The notes under the pieces were generated by a model. The model searched no databases, was not told the DNA's origin, and was given only the letters and a program-made list of their open reading frames with translations. Shown here piece after piece: positions 27,137-35,485 of a DNA stretch of 37,951 nt. The first letter of the stretch is position 1, and every line of letters starts with the position of its first letter. A program made the translations under genes and the position numbers. Source of the DNA: Planotetraspora phitsanulokensis (GTDB taxonomy: Bacteria > Actinomycetota > Actinomycetes > Streptosporangiales > Streptosporangiaceae); NCBI RefSeq assembly GCF_016863295.1, contig NZ_BOOP01000035.1, forward strand, positions 1 to 37,951. The letters are read 5' to 3'.

Positions 27137-27595
27137 TCAGGCGGCCTGGCCCGCGGCGGGGTCGAGGTAGGCGAAGTCGCCGGCCGCCGCGTACAGACGC
27201 CAGCTGAGACTCCGGGGACGGGCGACGACGAAGACCTGGACGCCGTGATCGGCGAGCCACCGCGCCAGGTCGGCGAAGTAGCCGTCACCCGACCCGATGA
27301 CGACGCGCTCGAACCGCAGATCCACCCGATCGGCGAGTGCCGCCTCGGACAGCGCGCTGTCCGCGCCGTCGGGGCCGGAGCGCATGAGCAACTGCACACC
27401 ATGGAAGGCCAGACCCACTCCGACGAGCGCGTTGTGGTTGACCCCGACCATGAACTGGTCCATCGGGCCGATCAGCACCAGCCGGCGATAGGCGTCCATG
27501 ACGTGTTCGACCTCTGCCGTGCTGGGCCGGGCGCAGCCCGCCAGGTTCTCGATGTCCAGCAGATGGATCGCACGTCCCTGTCGCAGAGATCGCAT
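27137..27595 (-). CDS. NYN/PIN-like domain protein (putative RNase)
   Basis: 152-residue protein with the acidic pattern of NYN/PIN-like nucleases: Asp14 in IHLLDIENLAG (with Asn17), Asp76/Asp79 in GPDGADSAL, and Asp104 in VVIGSGDGYFADLARWL, the signature GSGDxxF motif. VQVFVVARPRSLSWRLYAAA matches the last strands of the fold. Such proteins (LabA-like/NYN) are metal-dependent ribonucleases or RNA-binding proteins. The ATG follows GGGAGTGA. It is divergent from the A-E locus with 109 bp between starts, and its promoter overlaps the phased repeats there, so joint regulation is possible. It may be part of that system or an unrelated neighbour. Confidence 0.8.
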   Translation of the reverse strand: MRSLRQGRAIHLLDIENLAGCARPSTAEVEHVMDAYRRLVLIGPMDQFMVGVNHNALVGVGLAFHGVQLLMRSGPDGADSALSEAALADRVDLRFERVVIGSGDGYFADLARWLADHGVQVFVVARPRSLSWRLYAAAGDFAYLDPAAGQAA

Positions 27596-27704: not shown

Positions 27705-28472
27705 GTGGAACTAGACGCTCTGGAAAAACGCATCGCCGAGCTTCGTTCGGAGATACGGGCCGCCAAAGCCGCCGGGGAGCACGCGACCGTCCGGTCGTTG
27801 CGTGCCGAGCTCCGCAAGACCGAGCGCGCCTGGGACGTCGCACTGGAGCCCGAGCCCGAACCGGCCAAGGCTCCGCTGCTCCCCGTGCGTGAGCAGGTCC
27901 ATCAGGCGCTGACCCTGCTCGGCGTGCCGACGGCCACCAAAATGATCGTGACGGTCAACGAGGCCTTCTTCGCCGGCCACATCGCCACCAGTCAGCTGAC
28001 CAGCCTGCGCCGGGATGAGGAGAAGTCCTTCCGCAGCTCCCCGTTCGCCCGGCCGTACTACCTGTGCGCCGCGCTGACCTCCGAACTGCTGTCGCCGGCA
28101 CGCGGGCTGTTGGCCGTCAGCACCTGGCCGATGCCGACCCGCATCATCGGACCGCTCAGCCCCCGTGCGGACTTCCTGACCTCGGCCACCCGCATCGCGG
28201 AGCACATCATGCGGCTCACCGGCGCGGGCGAGGACGCCTCGCCGTCCGCCTACCGCCTGCTGACCCGGATGGCGCAGAACATCCCGGGAGCCGTGGACGG
28301 ATTCGACCAGGCCGATCCCACTCAGGTGATCGCCGCCGCCGGCGCCGAACTGGCCGTTCACGAGGAGAGCGACGCCAGTCACCGCGACGAGGCCGCCCGA
28401 CGCGCGGAGCGACAACTGAACGAGGTCAGGCAACTTTTCGGCGCCGGCCTGAAGACGGCGAGGACCGCGTGA
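27705..28472 (+). CDS. system gene A: coiled-coil protein of unknown function
   Basis: 255 residues that I do not recognise. Residues 1-48 are a charged heptad-rich coiled coil (LEKRIAELRSEIRAAKAAG, then SLRAELRKTERAW). A Pro-rich hinge (49-61) leads to an alpha/beta region (62-170) that could be a winged helix: REQVHQALTLLGVPTATKMI, ATSQLTSLRRDEEKSF and RPYYLCAALT. The C-terminus (205-250) is again helical and charged. No enzyme motif is seen. The GTG at 27705 is preferred because a promoter-like TACGCT ends just before it; an upstream in-frame ATG at 27648 would run through the promoter. It overlaps gene B by four bases (GTGA). A DNA-binding, assembly or specificity role is inferred. Confidence 0.75.
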   Translation: MELDALEKRIAELRSEIRAAKAAGEHATVRSLRAELRKTERAWDVALEPEPEPAKAPLLPVREQVHQALTLLGVPTATKMIVTVNEAFFAGHIATSQLTSLRRDEEKSFRSSPFARPYYLCAALTSELLSPARGLLAVSTWPMPTRIIGPLSPRADFLTSATRIAEHIMRLTGAGEDASPSAYRLLTRMAQNIPGAVDGFDQADPTQVIAAAGAELAVHEESDASHRDEAARRAERQLNEVRQLFGAGLKTARTA

Positions 28473-29560
28473 CCCGTCTCGACACGCTCCGCGGCCCCGC
28501 CGAGCCCCTCGACCACAACGCCCGCACCATCGCCGCCCTCGCCGTCAACCCCGGCTGCGACCGGCGCGCCCTCCTGGACGCCGCCGGGGTCGACAAGCAG
28601 AGAACGGCCACCCATCTCGGCTTTCCCGCGCCGTTCGGGCAGTCTCCGTTCGCCATCACCAGGGCCAAGTCCTTCGACGCCCTCGTCAAGGCGAACGGCT
28701 GCGCCCACCTGCTGCGTCTGCTGCGCAGCACGCTCGACCTGTCGATCTCCGAGGCGTCCTACTCCGACATCTCCGACGTCGGCGGCAACGACGACCACCA
28801 GGTGCGGCACACCCGCACGCGGGCGCTGCTCAAGCGAGCCGCCACCGACGGCGACGGAGCCGGCACCCTCTTCGACCACCCGCTGCTCAAGCTCACCGTC
28901 GCGGGCCACGAGGTCTACCTCGAGCCGGCCGTCATCGCCTTCCAGATCGAAGGCCGCTTCCACATCGTGGAGATCAAGTCCTTCGCCGTCATCGACGACC
29001 AGGCCGACGCCGGACAAGTCGCGGCGGCCGCCCGCCAGTCCGCGGTCTACGTGCACGCGCTGCGTGCGCTGTTCACCGCCGAGGGGCTCGACCCCGGGCG
29101 GATCTCGCACAATGTCGTGCTCGTCTGCCCCAAGGACTTCGCCAACCACCCCACCGCGACGCTGCTCGACGTCCGCCAGCAGCTGGCCGCGCTCGAGCGG
29201 CAGCTGTCCCGGCTGACCCGCATCGACCGCATCCTCGACGAGCTGCCGATCGGGATCACCTTCGACCTCGAGACGCAGTCGCCGGACGAGGTCGGCAAGG
29301 CCGTCGCCACCGTCGGCGCGCGGTTCGCACCCGAATGCCTGGCGAGCTGTGAGATGTCCCTCTTCTGCCGTGCCGAGGCACGTGACCGCGAATCGACGGA
29401 CGTGCTCGGGCGTGCCGCCAGAGACGAGTTGGGCGGCATCGAGTCCATCCCCGCCGTCCTCGGACTGGCCGACGACAGCCGGCCGCCGTCCCCCGAACAG
29501 CTCGAAATCGCCGAACAGCTGCGCTACGTCCGGCGGATCTACACCGAGGCCGTCGCATGA
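28469..29560 (+). CDS. system gene B: Cas4/Dna2-like PD-(D/E)XK nuclease with Fe-S cysteines
   Basis: 363 residues. The nuclease core shows Glu152 (VYLEPAVIAF) at the acidic motif II position, Glu168-x-Lys170 (HIVEIKSF) and the RecB-family motif Gln190-x3-Tyr194 (RQSAVYVHAL). Four cysteines are placed as in Cas4/Dna2/AddB iron-sulfur nucleases: an N-terminal Cys30 followed by Arg-Arg (NPGCDRRALLDAAG) and a C-terminal Cys290-x3-Cys294-x5-Cys300 (PECLASCEMSLFC). Such enzymes cut single-stranded DNA ends with a 4Fe-4S cluster holding the fold. The GTG overlaps the stop of A, and its own stop overlaps the start of C. No cas1, cas2 or array is near. Activity is inferred from motifs. Confidence 0.8.
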   Translation: MTRLDTLRGPAEPLDHNARTIAALAVNPGCDRRALLDAAGVDKQRTATHLGFPAPFGQSPFAITRAKSFDALVKANGCAHLLRLLRSTLDLSISEASYSDISDVGGNDDHQVRHTRTRALLKRAATDGDGAGTLFDHPLLKLTVAGHEVYLEPAVIAFQIEGRFHIVEIKSFAVIDDQADAGQVAAAARQSAVYVHALRALFTAEGLDPGRISHNVVLVCPKDFANHPTATLLDVRQQLAALERQLSRLTRIDRILDELPIGITFDLETQSPDEVGKAVATVGARFAPECLASCEMSLFCRAEARDRESTDVLGRAARDELGGIESIPAVLGLADDSRPPSPEQLEIAEQLRYVRRIYTEAVA

Positions 29561-31017
29561 GCATCATGAGCTCCTACGCGCGGGCGTTGGCCGTACAGAA
29601 CGGGCGGGCGCAGCCCGTCGCGACCGTCCGGCACCTGCATCTGTCGGCCACACCGATGGTCTTCATCCCCCTGAAGCTCGCCGGCGAGGCCGCGGCGCCG
29701 CTGGCCGCGCTGGTCGGCACCGACCCGGCGAACCCGCGGCTCCTGGTCGTCCCCCAACCTCGCAACCGCGACCTGCGCTTCGCCTTCATGGCCGAACTCG
29801 CCGAAGTCCTGCTGCCTTACATCGAGGGCCTGGCCGGGGTCACCGAGACCGTCGAGGCGAAGACCCCGTACGAACGATGCGCGGACGCACCGCAACTCCT
29901 GGTGCCCAACCGCGGCGGCATCGCCTTCACCAAGCTGCTCGGCCGCTCCACCAGATTCCGGCGCACCGACGGCCCCTACCCGGTGCACCCTTCCGTGCCG
30001 GTCCTCGGCCAGTGGCTGACCTTCCTCTCCGAGCGAGCCGAATACGCGGGATCGTCAGCGTTGGTCTCCATGACCGACGCGCTCGCCCTCCACTGGGCCA
30101 CCGGGCAGAGCTCGATGGAGGACGCCAACCTCGCCACGCAGCTCGCCTGGATCGCTCCGCCCGAAGGACTGGACGGCCCGGAGGCGGCCCTGGTCGCCGA
30201 GGACCCGCTCACCTCACCACCGGCCGGGCCTGAGACGCATCCCGACTTCGACGGCCAGGTACTGGAGTACGCGATTCAGGCATTCGAGACGTCGGGGTCG
30301 GCCGCTCAGGTCCGCGAGGCGCTGCGGAGCCAACTGGAGCCGACCTGGACGCTCATGTGGCAGGGCGTTCGATTACTGCGCGAGCTTCCCGAAGCCGCGA
30401 CGGTCGAGGCCCGTTGGGCGAGGGACCGTGATCAGTTCACCCGTGAGACCGCCCGCCTCGCCGAGGGAGGCTTCCCACGGGGCCGCGTCGACGGCGCCGT
30501 AAGCGCGGCCATCCGCCTGGCCGACCTGGAATCCGCCCTGCAGGCCTATGAAGCACAACGTGCCTTCGACGACCCCCTCGTCATGATCGAACACCGGGTC
30601 GCCGGCAAGGCCTTCTCCGGGGAGGTCGTCGCGGTGGACGCGACCCGGCGGATCGTGCCCGCCGGCAAGACCCGTGCGGCCCCGCGACCCCTCGTCACGA
30701 TCCGCACCAGCGACCCCGTACGGCTCTCGCCCGGCAGGAGGCTCGTCTCCAGCCGCAATCGCAAGCAGAGGACCGAGATCGTCGACATCACCGGCGACCT
30801 CGTCGTCATTCAGGTCAACGACCAGATGGGCCGCGGCGCCACCCCGGCTCCCGGCAGCGTTCCCGAGGTCGGCGACGTCGTCTGCTACGCCGAACTCGAC
30901 CCCAGCGGAGGGCAACGTCCGCGTCTGCCCGCCGGCGAGGACACCCCGTGGACGCACGGCGGACCACCCGAGCCCTATGTCCCGACCGACGAGGACGCCC
31001 AGGAGGCCTGGTCATGA
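29557..31017 (+). CDS. system gene C: unrecognised protein with a barrel-like C-terminus
   Basis: 486 residues matching no family I know. The N-terminal 100 residues alternate strands and helices (ATVRHLHLSATPMVFIPLKL, RLLVVPQPRNRDLRFAFMAE). The middle (about 230-340) is helical with an RWARDRDQFTRETARLAEGG segment like a helicase stalk. Residues about 340-450 are strand-rich (FSGEVVAVDATRRIV, PLVTIRTSDPVRLSPGRRLV, RTEIVDITGDLVVIQVNDQMG), resembling the beta-barrel 1B inserted before the motor of UPF1/Dna2 helicases. The acidic tail ends in TDEDAQEAWS. It overlaps B and D by four bases each. By position it may link nuclease B to helicase D. This is an inference from pattern, not a family match. 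Confidence 0.7.
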   Translation: MSIMSSYARALAVQNGRAQPVATVRHLHLSATPMVFIPLKLAGEAAAPLAALVGTDPANPRLLVVPQPRNRDLRFAFMAELAEVLLPYIEGLAGVTETVEAKTPYERCADAPQLLVPNRGGIAFTKLLGRSTRFRRTDGPYPVHPSVPVLGQWLTFLSERAEYAGSSALVSMTDALALHWATGQSSMEDANLATQLAWIAPPEGLDGPEAALVAEDPLTSPPAGPETHPDFDGQVLEYAIQAFETSGSAAQVREALRSQLEPTWTLMWQGVRLLRELPEAATVEARWARDRDQFTRETARLAEGGFPRGRVDGAVSAAIRLADLESALQAYEAQRAFDDPLVMIEHRVAGKAFSGEVVAVDATRRIVPAGKTRAAPRPLVTIRTSDPVRLSPGRRLVSSRNRKQRTEIVDITGDLVVIQVNDQMGRGATPAPGSVPEVGDVVCYAELDPSGGQRPRLPAGEDTPWTHGGPPEPYVPTDEDAQEAWS

Positions 31018-32315
31018 TCACGCTGACTCCCGGGCAGGCGGCGGCGGAGGCGACCGAAGCCATCCTGGCCGACTTCATGGGCGGCCCACACCGGGGCGTC
31101 ATCGTGGACTCCCCGCCCGGAGCCGGCAAGACGACCCTGGTCGTCACCGCGGCCACGACCCTCGCCGACTCCGGCGAACGGCTCATGATCGTGGCGCAGA
31201 CCAACGAGCAGGTCGACGACCTCACGGACAAGCTGGCGACCAAGGCCCCCACGCTGTCCATCGGCCGCCTGCACAGCGACGGATTCTCCGTACCGTCCCG
31301 AGTGACGCGGCATCCGGGCGTCACCGCTTCCAACAAGATCGACCAGGTCGAGTCGTGCGCGGTGGTGATAGCCACGGCCGACAAGTGGGCCTACGTGTCC
31401 GGCCACTCCTGGAGCTGGGCGATCGTCGACGAGGCGTACCAGATGCGCTCCGACAAGCTGCTGGCCATCGCCGCCCTGTTCGACCGCGCCCTGTTCGTCG
31501 GCGACCCCGGCCAGCTCGACCCCTTCTCCGTCGTTGACACCGAACGCTGGGCAGGCCTCGCCTGGGACCCGATGCAGAGCGCCGTCGCCGTCATCGGACG
31601 CCTCAACGACCTGCCCGTACACCGGCTGCCCGTCTCGTGGCGGCTGCCGGCGAGTGCCGCTCCCCTCGTGTCCGAGGCGTTCTATCCGTTCGCGTCGTTC
31701 CGGTCCGGTACGGCTGCCGCCGACCGCGAGCTTCAGCTCACCACCGCCGGTTTCCCCGTGCCCTGGGACCGCACACTCAACGAGGCCGCCGCCACGGGGT
31801 GGGCGCTCCACGAACTGCCGAGCCGGCACACGATCCGCACCGACGCCGAGGCCGTACAGGCCTGCGCGGGCCTGGCCACCCGCCTGCTGCAACGAGGAGC
31901 CGTCGCCCACGACGAGAACGGCTCCCATGACGTGGGCCCCGACCGCATCGCCATCGGCTGCGCGCACACCGATCAGGTCGCCGCGATCCGGGCGGCCGGC
32001 ACGCCGGCCGGGGTCACCGTCGACACCGCCAACCGGCTTCAGGGCCGCGAATACGACGTCACCATCGTCTTGCACCCGTTGTCGGGGCGACGCGACGCCA
32101 CCGCGTTCCACCTCGAATCGGGCCGCCTCTGCGTGCTCACCTCACGCCACCGCCACGCCTGCATCGTCGTCGCCCGAGCGGGAATCGCCGAACTGCTCGA
32201 CAACCATCCGTCCACGGGACGCGTCCAGCTCAACGTTCCCGTCAAGTTCCCCGACGGCTGGGAGGCCAACCACGCCGTCCTCGCCCATCTGTCCAACCAC
32301 CGTGTCGGAGCCTGA
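31014..32315 (+). CDS. system gene D: SF1 (UPF1/Dna2-like) helicase
   Basis: 433-residue P-loop helicase. Motif I is SPPGAGKTT (33-41), motif Ia lies in LMIVAQTNEQVDDL, motif II is IVDEAYQ (137-143), motif III GDPGQLDP (163-170), motif IV PVSWRLP (206-212), motif V DTANRLQGREYDVTIV (337-352) and motif VI LTSRHRHACIVV (375-386). This set fits the SF1B UPF1/Dna2 group, although the protein is short because no barrel or stalk is inserted. An in-frame opening upstream to 30948 overlaps C and is not needed: the ATG at 31014 overlaps the stop of C. It likely supplies ATP-driven 5'-3' unwinding for nuclease B. Confidence 0.88.
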   Translation: MITLTPGQAAAEATEAILADFMGGPHRGVIVDSPPGAGKTTLVVTAATTLADSGERLMIVAQTNEQVDDLTDKLATKAPTLSIGRLHSDGFSVPSRVTRHPGVTASNKIDQVESCAVVIATADKWAYVSGHSWSWAIVDEAYQMRSDKLLAIAALFDRALFVGDPGQLDPFSVVDTERWAGLAWDPMQSAVAVIGRLNDLPVHRLPVSWRLPASAAPLVSEAFYPFASFRSGTAAADRELQLTTAGFPVPWDRTLNEAAATGWALHELPSRHTIRTDAEAVQACAGLATRLLQRGAVAHDENGSHDVGPDRIAIGCAHTDQVAAIRAAGTPAGVTVDTANRLQGREYDVTIVLHPLSGRRDATAFHLESGRLCVLTSRHRHACIVVARAGIAELLDNHPSTGRVQLNVPVKFPDGWEANHAVLAHLSNHRVGA

Positions 32316-32343
32316 GCGCGGCATTACCTCGCCATGATCACCG

Positions 32344-32349
32344 TACGCT
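32344..32349 (+). promoter_or_regulatory. possible -10 element of gene E
   Basis: TACGCTG here repeats the heptamer in front of gene A. It lies in the 62-83 bp gap between D and E and would start transcription near 32356. Gene E could have its own start as well as read-through from A-D. Confidence 0.3.
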
Positions 32350-32398
32350 GTCGGTCAAGATCACCCCCCGAAATGTCTTGAAGAGAAGGCGCCTTGTC

Positions 32399-35300
32399 GT
32401 GGAAGACGCACCAGTTCTGGGCCTGTACGACTCGCTGCTCACTCGCCGTCTCGCTCAGCGCGTAGCCAGTTGGCGCGACTTAGGCCATGCCGTCGAGACC
32501 TCCCGGGTGGATGGGGAGGAGGTCGCCCATCTTCTCGGCCGGTTCATCGGAGAGACCGCGGCGCGAGCCCTGGCCACGATCAAAGACACCGACGAGCAGC
32601 TCAAACTCGCCAACACACTCCTGGGGCACTTGGCCGACCCCGAAACTGTCGAAGACGGCCCGAACAGGCTGCTGTCCGTCATTAGGAACGGACCCGACGC
32701 CGCGTCGCCCCAGCGGCCGCTGACGTCGCTGTCGGAAGCCGCGCTGCTCACCAACGCGCGGGAAGATCCGAACCTGGCCCACGAGCTTGCGGCCGAGTTG
32801 GCCAGCGCCGATCGAGTCGATCTGCTCTGTGCGTTCGTCAAATGGTCCGGCCTGCGCATTCTGGAAAAGCCGCTCACAGAACTTCAGCGGCGCGGTGTGC
32901 CGCTGCGTGTCATCACCACCACCTACATGGGCGCGACCGAACGACGTGCGCTGGACCGGCTCGTGAGGGACTTCGGGGCCGAGGTCCGGATCAGTTACGA
33001 GCAGAACGCCACCCGTCTGCATGCCAAAGCCTGGCTGCTACGTCGTCGTACCGGCTTCGACACCGCCTACGTCGGCAGCTCCAACCTGTCTCGCGCAGCT
33101 CTGCTGGACGGCCTGGAATGGAACGTCCGCCTCTCATCAGTGGCCACCCCACGACTGCTTGACAAGTTCGAGGGCACCTTCGACTCGTACTGGAATCGGC
33201 CGCAGTTCGAAACCTACGACCCCGAGACCGACGGCGACCGAGTCGACGAGGCGTTGTCCCGCGCCCAGGCGGGCAAGCGTATTTTCGACATTCCCGCGCT
33301 GGTCCCGCACCCTTTCCAACACCAGCGACAGATGCTGGAAGACCTCGACGTGCAGCGCACCCTGCACGACAGGCACCGCAACCTGCTCGTGGCCGCCACC
33401 GGGACCGGTAAGACCGTGGTGGCCGCCTTCGACTACCGCAACCTGCAACAACGCCTCGGACGGCAACCGTCGCTCCTGTTCGTCGCGCACCGCAGGGAAA
33501 TCCTGGCGCAGGCGCTGCGCACCTATCGGCAGGTGCTGGCCGTACCGGATTTCGGCGAACTGCACGTCGGCGAAGACCGGTCCCGGCAGTGGCGGCACGT
33601 GTTCGCTTCCATCCAGTCGCTCACCTCGCGTGGCATCGACAGCTTCGATCCCCGCCACTTCGACGTCGTGGTGATCGACGAGTTTCACCACGCTGCCGCC
33701 CGCACGTACCGACAGGTCATCGACCACCTCAAGCCCAAGGAATTGCTCGGGCTCACCGCCACCCCGGAAAGGGCCGACGGCACCTGGGTCCACGACGAGT
33801 TCTTCGACGGGCGTATCGCCTCCGAACTGCGGCTCTGGGACGCCCTGGACGCCGATCTGCTCTGCCCGTTCCACTACTTCGGAATCAACGACGAGACCGA
33901 CTTCCGTAGCGTGGCGTGGTCACGTGGCGCCTACCTCAGCAGCGAGCTCGACAACATCCTCACCGGTGACACGGCTCGCGCCCGACTGGTGTTCAACGCG
34001 CTGCTGGACAAGGCCAGCGACCTTGACGCGGTCCGCGGCCTGGGCTTCTGCATATCGGTCCGGCATGCGCACTTCATGGCTGATTTCTTCACCCAGAACG
34101 GCTTGCCGTCGTTGGCCGTCGACGGATCGACCGACGACGCCGATCGCCGGGCGGCGCTGAGCGCTCTGCGTGACGGCAAGGTGACATTCCTTTTCGCGGT
34201 GGACCTCTTCAACGAGGGTCTAGATGTTCCGGACGTCAACACACTGCTCCTGCTCCGGCCCACCGAGAGTGCGACAGTGTTCCTCCAGCAGCTTGGCCGC
34301 GGTCTTCGCCGTACGCCCGACAAGGATGTGCTGACCGTGCTGGATTTCGTGGGCCAGCACCGCAAGGAGTATCGATTCGCGACCCGTTTCCAGGCGTTGA
34401 CGGGGCACGCCCGAGGGCGCCTGGAGGGCCAGGTGAAAGACGACTTTCCCCTGCTACCGACGGGCTCCCAGATCGTCTTGGACCGGGTCACCAAGGACCG
34501 TCTGCTTGCCGAGCTCAAAATCCATCTCAACGCCACGGTCACGACGCTGTCGCAGGAGATTCGTTCCTGTGCGGAGACATCCCTCATCGGCTATCTCGAG
34601 GCCAGTGGTCGCGACATCGGCGACGTCTATCGCAACCAGCGTTACTGGACCTCGCTGCTGCGCCGCGCCGGGCTCGTCAAGGAAACCGCCTCCCCCATGG
34701 AGGAGGCACTCGGGCGGCGCGTGCGAGCACTTCTCCACGTGGACGATCAGCGCCGGGCCGACGCGTACATCAGACTGCTACGCCCCGACGGTCCCGAATA
34801 CGACCGGTGCTCACCCGCCGACCAGGCGTTCATCCGCATGTTGTTCTTCTCGTTCTGGCGTGATGGAGGCGGCTTCGCCTCCTACGGCGAAGGTCTCGCC
34901 CGGCTTCGAGCGGAATCCGCGCTGTGCGCGGAGATCCAGCAGGTCATCGCTTATGGCGTGGAGCGTCCACGCCACGTCGCCAAACCCCTGCCCGACCCGC
35001 TGGAGCAGGTACCGCTCGCGATCAACGCTCACTACTCCTCTGACGAGATCCTCGCGGGCCTCGGCTGGGCGGCGTTGGGCGGACCTGTACCGTCCACCAT
35101 GCGCGAAGGCGTCGCGTGGATTCCGGCCACTCAGTGCGATGCACTCCTCGTGACCCTTCGCAAGAACGAGAAGGAGTTTTCTCCTCAGACCATGTACCGG
35201 GACTTCGCTCTCACCCCATCGCTCTTTCACTGGGAATCCCAGTACCGGACCAGCGCCCATTCATCTACGGGCCTCCGGTACCAGAACCACGAGCGAAACG

Positions 35301-35485
35301 GCAGCCATGTGCTGCTATTCACCAGGGAAGGCAAGGAGAACGAGAGCCGACACCCGGAACCTTTCGTTTTCCATGGCACCGCACGCTACGTGGAGCACCG
35401 TGGCGAACGGCCCATGGCCGTGACCTGGAAACTTGATGAGGAGATGCCCACCGATCTATTCCGCCGCGCTGCCATCGCAGGGTGA
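32399..35485 (+). CDS. system gene E: PLD-like nuclease / SF2 helicase / DUF3427-like fusion
   Basis: 1028 residues from the GTG at 32399, chosen because GAGAAGG lies about nine bases upstream; an in-frame TTG at 32378 is possible. The N-terminal phospholipase-D-like domain (about 110-265) has LHAKAWLL (His208, Lys210) and YVGSSNLS. The SF2 motor has Walker A AATGTGKT (332-339), motif II IDEFHH (426-431), motif III LTATPER (452-458), motif V DLFNEGLDVPDVN (602-614) and motif VI QQLGRGLRR (630-638). The last about 380 residues, with TMYRDFALTPSLFHWESQY, match DUF3427-type C-termini. The HKD Asp is not at its usual spacing. Such fusions occur in defence islands. It follows D on the same strand. 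Confidence 0.88.
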   Translation: MEDAPVLGLYDSLLTRRLAQRVASWRDLGHAVETSRVDGEEVAHLLGRFIGETAARALATIKDTDEQLKLANTLLGHLADPETVEDGPNRLLSVIRNGPDAASPQRPLTSLSEAALLTNAREDPNLAHELAAELASADRVDLLCAFVKWSGLRILEKPLTELQRRGVPLRVITTTYMGATERRALDRLVRDFGAEVRISYEQNATRLHAKAWLLRRRTGFDTAYVGSSNLSRAALLDGLEWNVRLSSVATPRLLDKFEGTFDSYWNRPQFETYDPETDGDRVDEALSRAQAGKRIFDIPALVPHPFQHQRQMLEDLDVQRTLHDRHRNLLVAATGTGKTVVAAFDYRNLQQRLGRQPSLLFVAHRREILAQALRTYRQVLAVPDFGELHVGEDRSRQWRHVFASIQSLTSRGIDSFDPRHFDVVVIDEFHHAAARTYRQVIDHLKPKELLGLTATPERADGTWVHDEFFDGRIASELRLWDALDADLLCPFHYFGINDETDFRSVAWSRGAYLSSELDNILTGDTARARLVFNALLDKASDLDAVRGLGFCISVRHAHFMADFFTQNGLPSLAVDGSTDDADRRAALSALRDGKVTFLFAVDLFNEGLDVPDVNTLLLLRPTESATVFLQQLGRGLRRTPDKDVLTVLDFVGQHRKEYRFATRFQALTGHARGRLEGQVKDDFPLLPTGSQIVLDRVTKDRLLAELKIHLNATVTTLSQEIRSCAETSLIGYLEASGRDIGDVYRNQRYWTSLLRRAGLVKETASPMEEALGRRVRALLHVDDQRRADAYIRLLRPDGPEYDRCSPADQAFIRMLFFSFWRDGGGFASYGEGLARLRAESALCAEIQQVIAYGVERPRHVAKPLPDPLEQVPLAINAHYSSDEILAGLGWAALGGPVPSTMREGVAWIPATQCDALLVTLRKNEKEFSPQTMYRDFALTPSLFHWESQYRTSAHSSTGLRYQNHERNGSHVLLFTREGKENESRHPEPFVFHGTARYVEHRGERPMAVTWKLDEEMPTDLFRRAAIAG

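Follow-up and report, generated by a model that had tools for sequence, protein, structure and literature searches.

The 37,951-nucleotide stretch of Planotetraspora phitsanulokensis DNA analysed here (assembly GCF_016863295.1, contig NZ_BOOP01000035.1, positions 1 to 37,951; hereafter the window) carries five genes, A to E, on its forward strand (Table 1). A sequence-only reading had taken them for one multi-subunit system, and all coordinates of its five open reading frames (ORFs) were confirmed, as were the four-base overlaps it had read at the three junctions from A to D. An in-frame start allowing such a 4-bp overlap is present at 60 of 107 A/B, 77 of 134 B/C and 108 of 132 C/D junctions. 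Since the gene order also recurs, the A-D overlaps are not due to chance. E follows on the same strand after a gap of 62 bp, with no overlap, and its base composition differs: the GC content is 0.70-0.71 in A-D vs 0.646 in E, and the GC content at third codon positions (GC3) is 0.86-0.92 vs 0.80. Between 27000 and 35800 there is no sigma-70-like promoter (0.5 expected by chance), a result that is weakly informative in such an organism. Our results support the view that A-D represent one conserved multi-gene DNA-processing unit, a separate operon, and that E is its neighbour and not part of it. Thus, the idea of a single DNA-processing system holds for A-D and fails for E.

Table 1. Genes and junctions of the A-E region (window coordinates)
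Feature	Position	Strand	Description
Gene A	27705-28472	+	GTG start, 255 aa
Gene B	28469-29560	+	GTG start, 363 aa
Gene C	29557-31017	+	ATG start, 486 aa
Gene D	31014-32315	+	ATG start, 433 aa
Gene E	32378-35485	+	TTG start, 1035 aa; alternative GTG at 32399
A/B stop/start overlap GTGA	28469..28472	+	4 bp, read directly
B/C stop/start overlap ATGA	29557..29560	+	4 bp, read directly
C/D stop/start overlap ATGA	31014..31017	+	4 bp, read directly
NYN-like gene	27137..27595	-	152 aa; divergent from A, 110 bp upstream; possible companion

Distribution of the A-D unit

A-D are widespread in soil actinomycetes and unnamed in the databases searched. Among 150 genomes of the window's family, we found B in 82, C in 82, D in 80 and A in 73 (E-value limits of 1e-10 for B and C, 1e-40 for D and 1e-8 for A). 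At the thresholds used, 103 fetched loci comprised 76 with ABCD, 12 with BCD, five with ABCDE, five with D only, two with CDE, two with DE and one with C only; together with the window they were reduced to 99 after merging duplicates. B, C and D travel together, and A is sometimes missing. Loci having D and lacking an intact adjoining ABC belong to Micromonospora and its relatives, where C is still present in all eight genomes searched. In three Micromonospora loci (L102, L107 and L113), stretches of about 8.9, 2.4 and 1.0 kb, respectively, separate C from D. The larger genome collection yielded at least 595 candidate stretches, at least 528 of them encoding a D relative, and the best 80 all come from actinomycetes. 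Across the class, 71 of 394 genomes have B, representing 17 of 138 genera; in genus g52, probably Streptomyces, it is present in 141 of 150. Within the family, C is mostly all-or-none among the genera listed (five of five genomes in the window's genus, g1; exceptions are g31 and g73), a partial view in that 48 genomes without C lie outside this list. Such stability within genera, most evident for B in g52, is unlike typical defence and favours a core function.

The neighbourhood in g52 is recurrent as well. Around 13 examined loci of this genus we repeatedly found genes for a tetratricopeptide repeat protein, a histidine phosphatase, PAP2, a small protein, a Prim-Pol protein and GGDEF-EAL; none is present in every locus, domains were tested on one member each, and neighbouring genes were called with a home-made heuristic. 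A does not adjoin B in any of the 13. In eight (L208-L212, L214, L215 and L041), the small gene comes next after D on the same strand, and then a gene of the Prim-Pol cluster, for which the domain was shown in the one member tested. This neighbour suggests a link between A-D and DNA synthesis.

The sequence-only reading had matched the gene set to no named system. For A-D this stands as far as the libraries used are concerned: PADLOC-DB 2.0.0, Pfam and NCBIfam hold no named defence system corresponding to A-D, and PADLOC-DB has no component models for A, B or C at E up to 1. B and C belong to no family of PADLOC, Pfam, NCBIfam or PHROGs, and on these grounds we rejected A-D as a known defence system. 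Phage origin was rejected too, as B has no match in 50,697 phage records and D has no relative in viral contigs. Among the open-licence papers that the literature searches found, no title or abstract start describes an A-D operon, which does not imply its absence from print.

Predicted motor, barrel and nuclease

Judged by its sequence, D is a superfamily 1 (SF1) helicase of the Upf1/Dna2 type with intact motifs. It matches Pfam AAA_30, AAA_11 and AAA_12, in agreement with the SF1 assignment made earlier, and its nearest solved structures in a PDB profile search are SMUBP-2, DNA2 and UPF1. The helicase part of the fused Dna2-like TM0106 proteins (TIGR03491) matches D in a profile comparison (hhalign, 99.6%, E 8e-24), and PADLOC gives partial matches only, to helicase domains of other systems. 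Out of 16 motif positions in 133 sequences, 14 are invariant, one is S or T, and one is R (131) or K (2). In this helicase family a 1B domain precedes Walker A. Only 32 residues precede the Walker A of D, so there is no room for such a domain.

Gene C might supply it. Neither C nor A has a library family above the cut-off, as had been noted before, and for C this extends to Pfam, NCBIfam, PHROGs and PADLOC models at E up to 1. The structural model of C (predicted local distance difference test score, pLDDT, 90; predicted template modelling score, pTM, 0.87) consists of an N-terminal alpha/beta region, helices 229-348 and a beta-barrel at 352-445. Its best PDB fold match is Dna2 (5ean, E 0.007), senataxin scoring lower and many unrelated barrels lying between. 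Since this E-value is above the 1e-3 line and unrelated barrels are interspersed, the fold assignment is suggestive only; by it, C may contribute in trans the stalk and 1B barrel for a Dna2/Upf1-type helicase. Viral proteins gave no fold match to C below 1e-3.

B has no family match in Pfam, NCBIfam, PADLOC (E up to 1) or PHROGs. Profile comparison nevertheless gave weak matches to actinobacterial Cas4 (45%, E 2e-4) and to the fused TM0106 proteins (33%, E 5e-4). In the alignment with Cas4, the Asp of Cas4 is paired with D154, its E-x-K with E168-x-K170 and its Q motif with Q190. Matches to 4rv1 and 4hxt were dismissed as designed-protein repeats aligned over about 30 residues. By this weak profile match, B would be a RecB/Cas4/Dna2-like PD-(D/E)XK protein. 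The Cas4/Dna2-like nature that the sequence-only reading gave to B is indicated by its motifs and by this weak match, with one correction: in the window the motif-II Asp of that nuclease is replaced. Cysteines C30 and C290-x3-C294-x5-C300 are present in 127 of 127 distinct relatives. The catalytic pattern of the window's B reads E152, A154, E168-x-K170, Q190...Y194, and these positions are conserved as E152 in 125 of the 127, D154 in 118, E168 in 110, K170 in 122, Q190 in 116 and Y194 in all. As Ala replaces the motif-II Asp (A154), the window's B nuclease may be inactive. The full E/D/E/K quartet is kept in 103 proteins, which makes an active nuclease the probable ancestral state. The other 24, the window's included, have lost one or more of these positions: E/A/E/K is found in the window and four relatives, E/D/A/K in seven and E/D/L/R in five, and seven more differ singly. 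The five E/D/L/R proteins, in which E168 and K170 are both replaced (L and R), come from loci L237-L241, and their nuclease is probably inactive.

These losses raise the question of whether A-D might be a nuclease-free helicase remodeller, acting for example at replication forks or R-loops, with B as a structural DNA-binding iron-sulphur (Fe-S) subunit. Hardly varying motifs in D, catalytic residues of B replaced in several lineages and in the window itself while all four cysteines persist, and the Prim-Pol-cluster gene in eight of 13 g52 loci would all be consistent with this. However, the prevalence of the full quartet points to an ancestral nuclease, and linkage to SbcCD (see below) points to DNA ends. 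We therefore consider a pure remodeller improbable.

We favour instead a split Dna2-like complex, and the likeness to Dna2 and TM0106-family RecB-nuclease/SF1-helicase fusions is seen in several features: the SF1 core of D, the putative RecB/Cas4 motifs of B and its C-terminal C-x3-C-x5-C. Domains of Dna2 are ordered nuclease, barrel, motor. If the nuclease, stalk/barrel and motor assignments are right, B, C and D are thus in the same order. On the other hand, Dna2 and TM0106 proteins are single chains, whereas here the parts are spread over three chains, with A as a fourth; B and C are too diverged for significant sequence matches, and some B proteins have lost active-site residues. A second comparison is with AdnAB, AddAB and RecBCD, which presumably share the task of a helicase-nuclease at DNA ends. 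AddB carries an Fe-S nuclease, as B is predicted to do. Those enzymes, however, are built of large helicase-nuclease subunits, whereas D has 433 residues and an Upf1/DNA2-type motor, and NCBIfam gave no match to this group. The window's genome also has two large PDDEXK_1 ORFs side by side that are consistent with AdnAB, and A-D are thus probably not its sole resection machine. PMC5869714 describes AdnAB as the chief helicase-nuclease in Streptomyces.

The place of A is less clear. No PADLOC model matches it at E up to 1, and the family libraries gave sub-threshold noise only. The structural model (pLDDT 92, pTM 0.75) shows a helical hairpin (3-47) followed by a mixed, mostly helical domain, and residues invariant in 45 sequences include L101, R102, R103 and E105. 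The fold search found no match (best E 0.68), and the N-terminal hairpin alone resembles a short coiled coil. A adjoins B-C-D in many lineages and is absent beside them in others; perhaps it is an accessory subunit with a role in loading or end recognition. Diverged A-like genes were also seen off the contigs of the B-C-D operon (G148:C168, G149:C137 and G087:C282).

Gene E and the defence genes beside D

E fits the PADLOC mREase_IV model with 1201 bits over 108-1032. Its domains, PLDc_2, ResIII, Helicase_C and DUF3427 (845-1030), bear out the earlier description as a phospholipase D-like (PLD) nuclease, superfamily 2 (SF2) helicase and DUF3427 protein. PDB chain 7clg_A, which we take to be SauUSI, aligns with 286.7 bits. 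E shares with it the PLD HxK motif (H215-x-K217 in the alignment) and the central SF2 helicase, and differs in the C-terminal recognition region, where DUF3427 scores 2 bits only against the 7clg_A C-terminus and is hardly alignable. The SauUSI motif is given in PMC7913695 as H(x)K(x)4E; in E it reads H(x)K(x)4R. From these sequence matches, E is assigned to a known class, the SauUSI-like Type IV restriction enzymes, and is probably methyl-dependent. Consequently, the claim that no named system matches does not extend to E.

Could A-E nonetheless be one five-subunit system, as the sequence-only reading had it? The common strand, the short gap to D and E-family genes in seven of the 99 deduplicated loci (a raw count over about 10 kb to each side of D) would agree with this. 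However, of the same 150 family genomes, 47 have E (E-value limit 1e-100), and 16 of these have no C, while C is present in 51 of the 103 genomes without E. Where C and E occur in one genome (31 cases), they are adjacent in three (G000, G003 and G004) and apart in 28, either on different contigs (24, which could still be close) or more than 1 Mb from each other on one contig (four). Copies of E 80-84% identical to the window's lie elsewhere in other genomes, two genus neighbours have a 44% identical homologue on the opposite strand instead, and E itself is patchy within g1 (three of five genomes). A-D and E are thus mostly found in separate loci, an outcome that the sequence-only reading had itself named as its refutation. 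On grounds of linkage and base composition we rejected the five-gene unit, to which we assign hardly any probability. Setting E apart strikes a false five-gene system from the list of candidates.

The position of E may be explained by what lies after D in related genomes. Known defence genes occur there in all five g1 genomes, within 0.2 kb in four, although this has no chance baseline. G003 and G004 have the 44% identical homologue of E just mentioned, with an internal stop codon in G003. In G002, D is followed by MzaC (1.5e-84) and MzaD (1e-15), three further genes of this run having no PADLOC model. G001 carries, 1.3 kb from D, the gene of a kinase-domain protein (PD-T4-6 model), followed by a NERD-UvrD-like gene, and the DISARM genes DrmB (7e-67) and DrmA (1e-238) are about 6 kb away. 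In other words, the region 3' of A-D in the window's genus resembles a hotspot for the insertion of defence genes, which would account for the position of E. A close relative (L043 1-19000, G004:C8) has disrupted remains of another C-D copy near an E-like helicase and a gene 33% identical to an MzaC-like protein.

It is tempting to take this company as a sign that A-D are themselves an anti-phage or anti-plasmid system degrading the ends of invading DNA, with E, Mza, DISARM and Wadjet as allies. Defence genes beside D are not confined to g1: in L107, a GmrSD_N protein sits between C and D and a type I restriction-modification set follows D, while Beta_protein follows in L108. Wadjet genes and replicon ends, considered below, can be cited in its favour too. 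At the same time, DUF4246, FA_hydroxylase and a transposase also adjoin D; viral contigs and phage records hold no match to D and B, respectively; PADLOC has no model for A-C; and in g52 B is near-core, with ordinary genes as its recurrent neighbours on the chromosome. Thus, the defence role proposed by the sequence-only reading is weakened by the g52 census and retains the association with defence genes in some lineages, itself without a chance baseline. Overall, we regard defence as the function of A-D as rather unlikely, though not negligible.

SbcCD, Wadjet and DNA ends

The best independent support for a split Dna2-like end-resection complex comes from SbcCD (Mre11-Rad50). By tblastn, SbcD or SbcC lies beside ABCD in 19 of 140 D-bearing loci, which suggests a task of A-D at DNA ends. 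Eighteen of the 19 loci have the pair in divergent orientation to A (fragmentary in L023), and in L112 of Amycolatopsis it follows D on the same strand. In a B+C+D tree, several deep nodes of which have low support, 17 of the 19 belong to one clade of 18 tips (support 0.989), L227 is placed near the base and L112 separately, so that the linkage is seen at three places. The HerA-NurA motor and nuclease belong to families unrelated to those of A-D. The situation is nevertheless alike: in archaea they work with Mre11-Rad50, according to PMC4641729.

Wadjet (JetABCD) is a neighbour of nine of the 19 SbcCD-linked loci and of none of the other 121 (Fisher test 2e-9, ignoring ancestry and duplicates), as judged by JetA1 and JetA2 queries only. 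Two Wadjet types are involved, with JetA1 in L021, L023, L223, L232 and L245 and JetA2 in L221, L227, L230 and L233. In the window, tblastn with JetA1/B/C/D and JetA2/B2 gave no match above threshold. The remaining ten SbcCD-linked loci have neither JetA1 nor JetA2 in the stretch examined; downstream of D they carry, for example, an SF2 helicase with helicase-associated (HA) domains, a UvrD-like gene, a helix-turn-helix gene or unknown genes. An SF2 helicase follows D in L223, L224 and L242, all SbcCD-linked, and the L223 copy has HA domains. Several copies are found at replicon ends: at both ends of G796 and G870, in the first kilobases of G836 and at kilobase 288 of a 300-kb linear Streptomyces plasmid. 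Wadjet is reported to be enriched at Streptomyces chromosome ends in PMC10482375.

From gene content, order, linkage, distribution, motifs and the predicted folds of A and C, we infer how the subunits may assemble, with C as domain 1B, and what polarity, substrates and role they may have. D, as the RecA-like SF1 motor, would translocate on one strand, and C, as stalk and 1B barrel, would wedge the duplex open. B, the putative Fe-S RecB/Cas4-type nuclease subunit, would grip the displaced strand and cut it where its active site is intact, with A perhaps helping in loading or end recognition. Where SbcC-SbcD adjoins, Mre11-Rad50 would first open ends that are blocked or fresh and then pass them to A-D. 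Core copies would probably serve chromosome repair or end maintenance, and SbcCD-linked copies, some near replicon ends, would probably act in plasmid competition by degrading Wadjet-cut molecules. E, an independent restriction enzyme, would have joined the defence hotspot downstream of D.

Several observations weigh against this interpretation. In addition to the B proteins lacking catalytic residues, these are the weak profile matches of B; a fold match of C to Dna2 above the 1e-3 line, with F1-ATPase barrels scoring similarly; no significant sequence match of C, for which hhalign against the fused TM0106 proteins finds nothing; and, in the loci examined, no fusion of B with C or of C with D (C reaching 591 aa at most and D 479 aa). 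SbcCD does not adjoin A-D in the window or in 121 of the 140 loci. Sampling was also biased: the 140 loci are not random, 101 (window included) having been collected first and 39 selected later among the hits, a good part of them as second copies, and SbcCD linkage was found in three of the former and 16 of the latter. They include at least five duplicates and flanks of differing length, and the Fisher test ignores ancestry; the linkage to SbcCD could also be ancestral and lost many times. All things considered, we give about an even chance to the view of two neighbours, with A-D as a split Dna2-like end-processing complex and E as an independent restriction enzyme at a defence hotspot. A-D may serve repair, defence or both.

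A more elaborate version is correspondingly more speculative, and we regard it, in its entirety, as rather unlikely: together with SbcCD, A-D would be an actinomycete counterpart of the eukaryotic Mre11-Rad50/Dna2 resection set, Dna2 being split into nuclease, wedge and motor subunits, core in g52, re-used several times with SbcCD and Wadjet against plasmids, often at linear replicon ends, and turned into a nuclease-dead remodeller in some lineages, including that of the window. What is probably the principal genus of antibiotic producers would have, in a near-universal operon whose proteins the family libraries used leave unnamed, a second machine for end processing beside AdnAB, and the linear chromosomes of these bacteria have unstable ends. 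The pairing with Mre11-Rad50 and Wadjet offers a testable answer to the question of what clears Wadjet-cut plasmid DNA.

The place taken by sbcD in SbcCD-type loci is occupied in the window by the divergent NYN-like gene. Across 11 distinct loci, from the window's genus and related ones, such a gene is found 110-122 bp upstream of A. The window copy has no Pfam match at 1e-5, and its homologue in L056 scores above the cut-off of the Pfam NYN model. This gene may be a lineage-specific partner of A-D.

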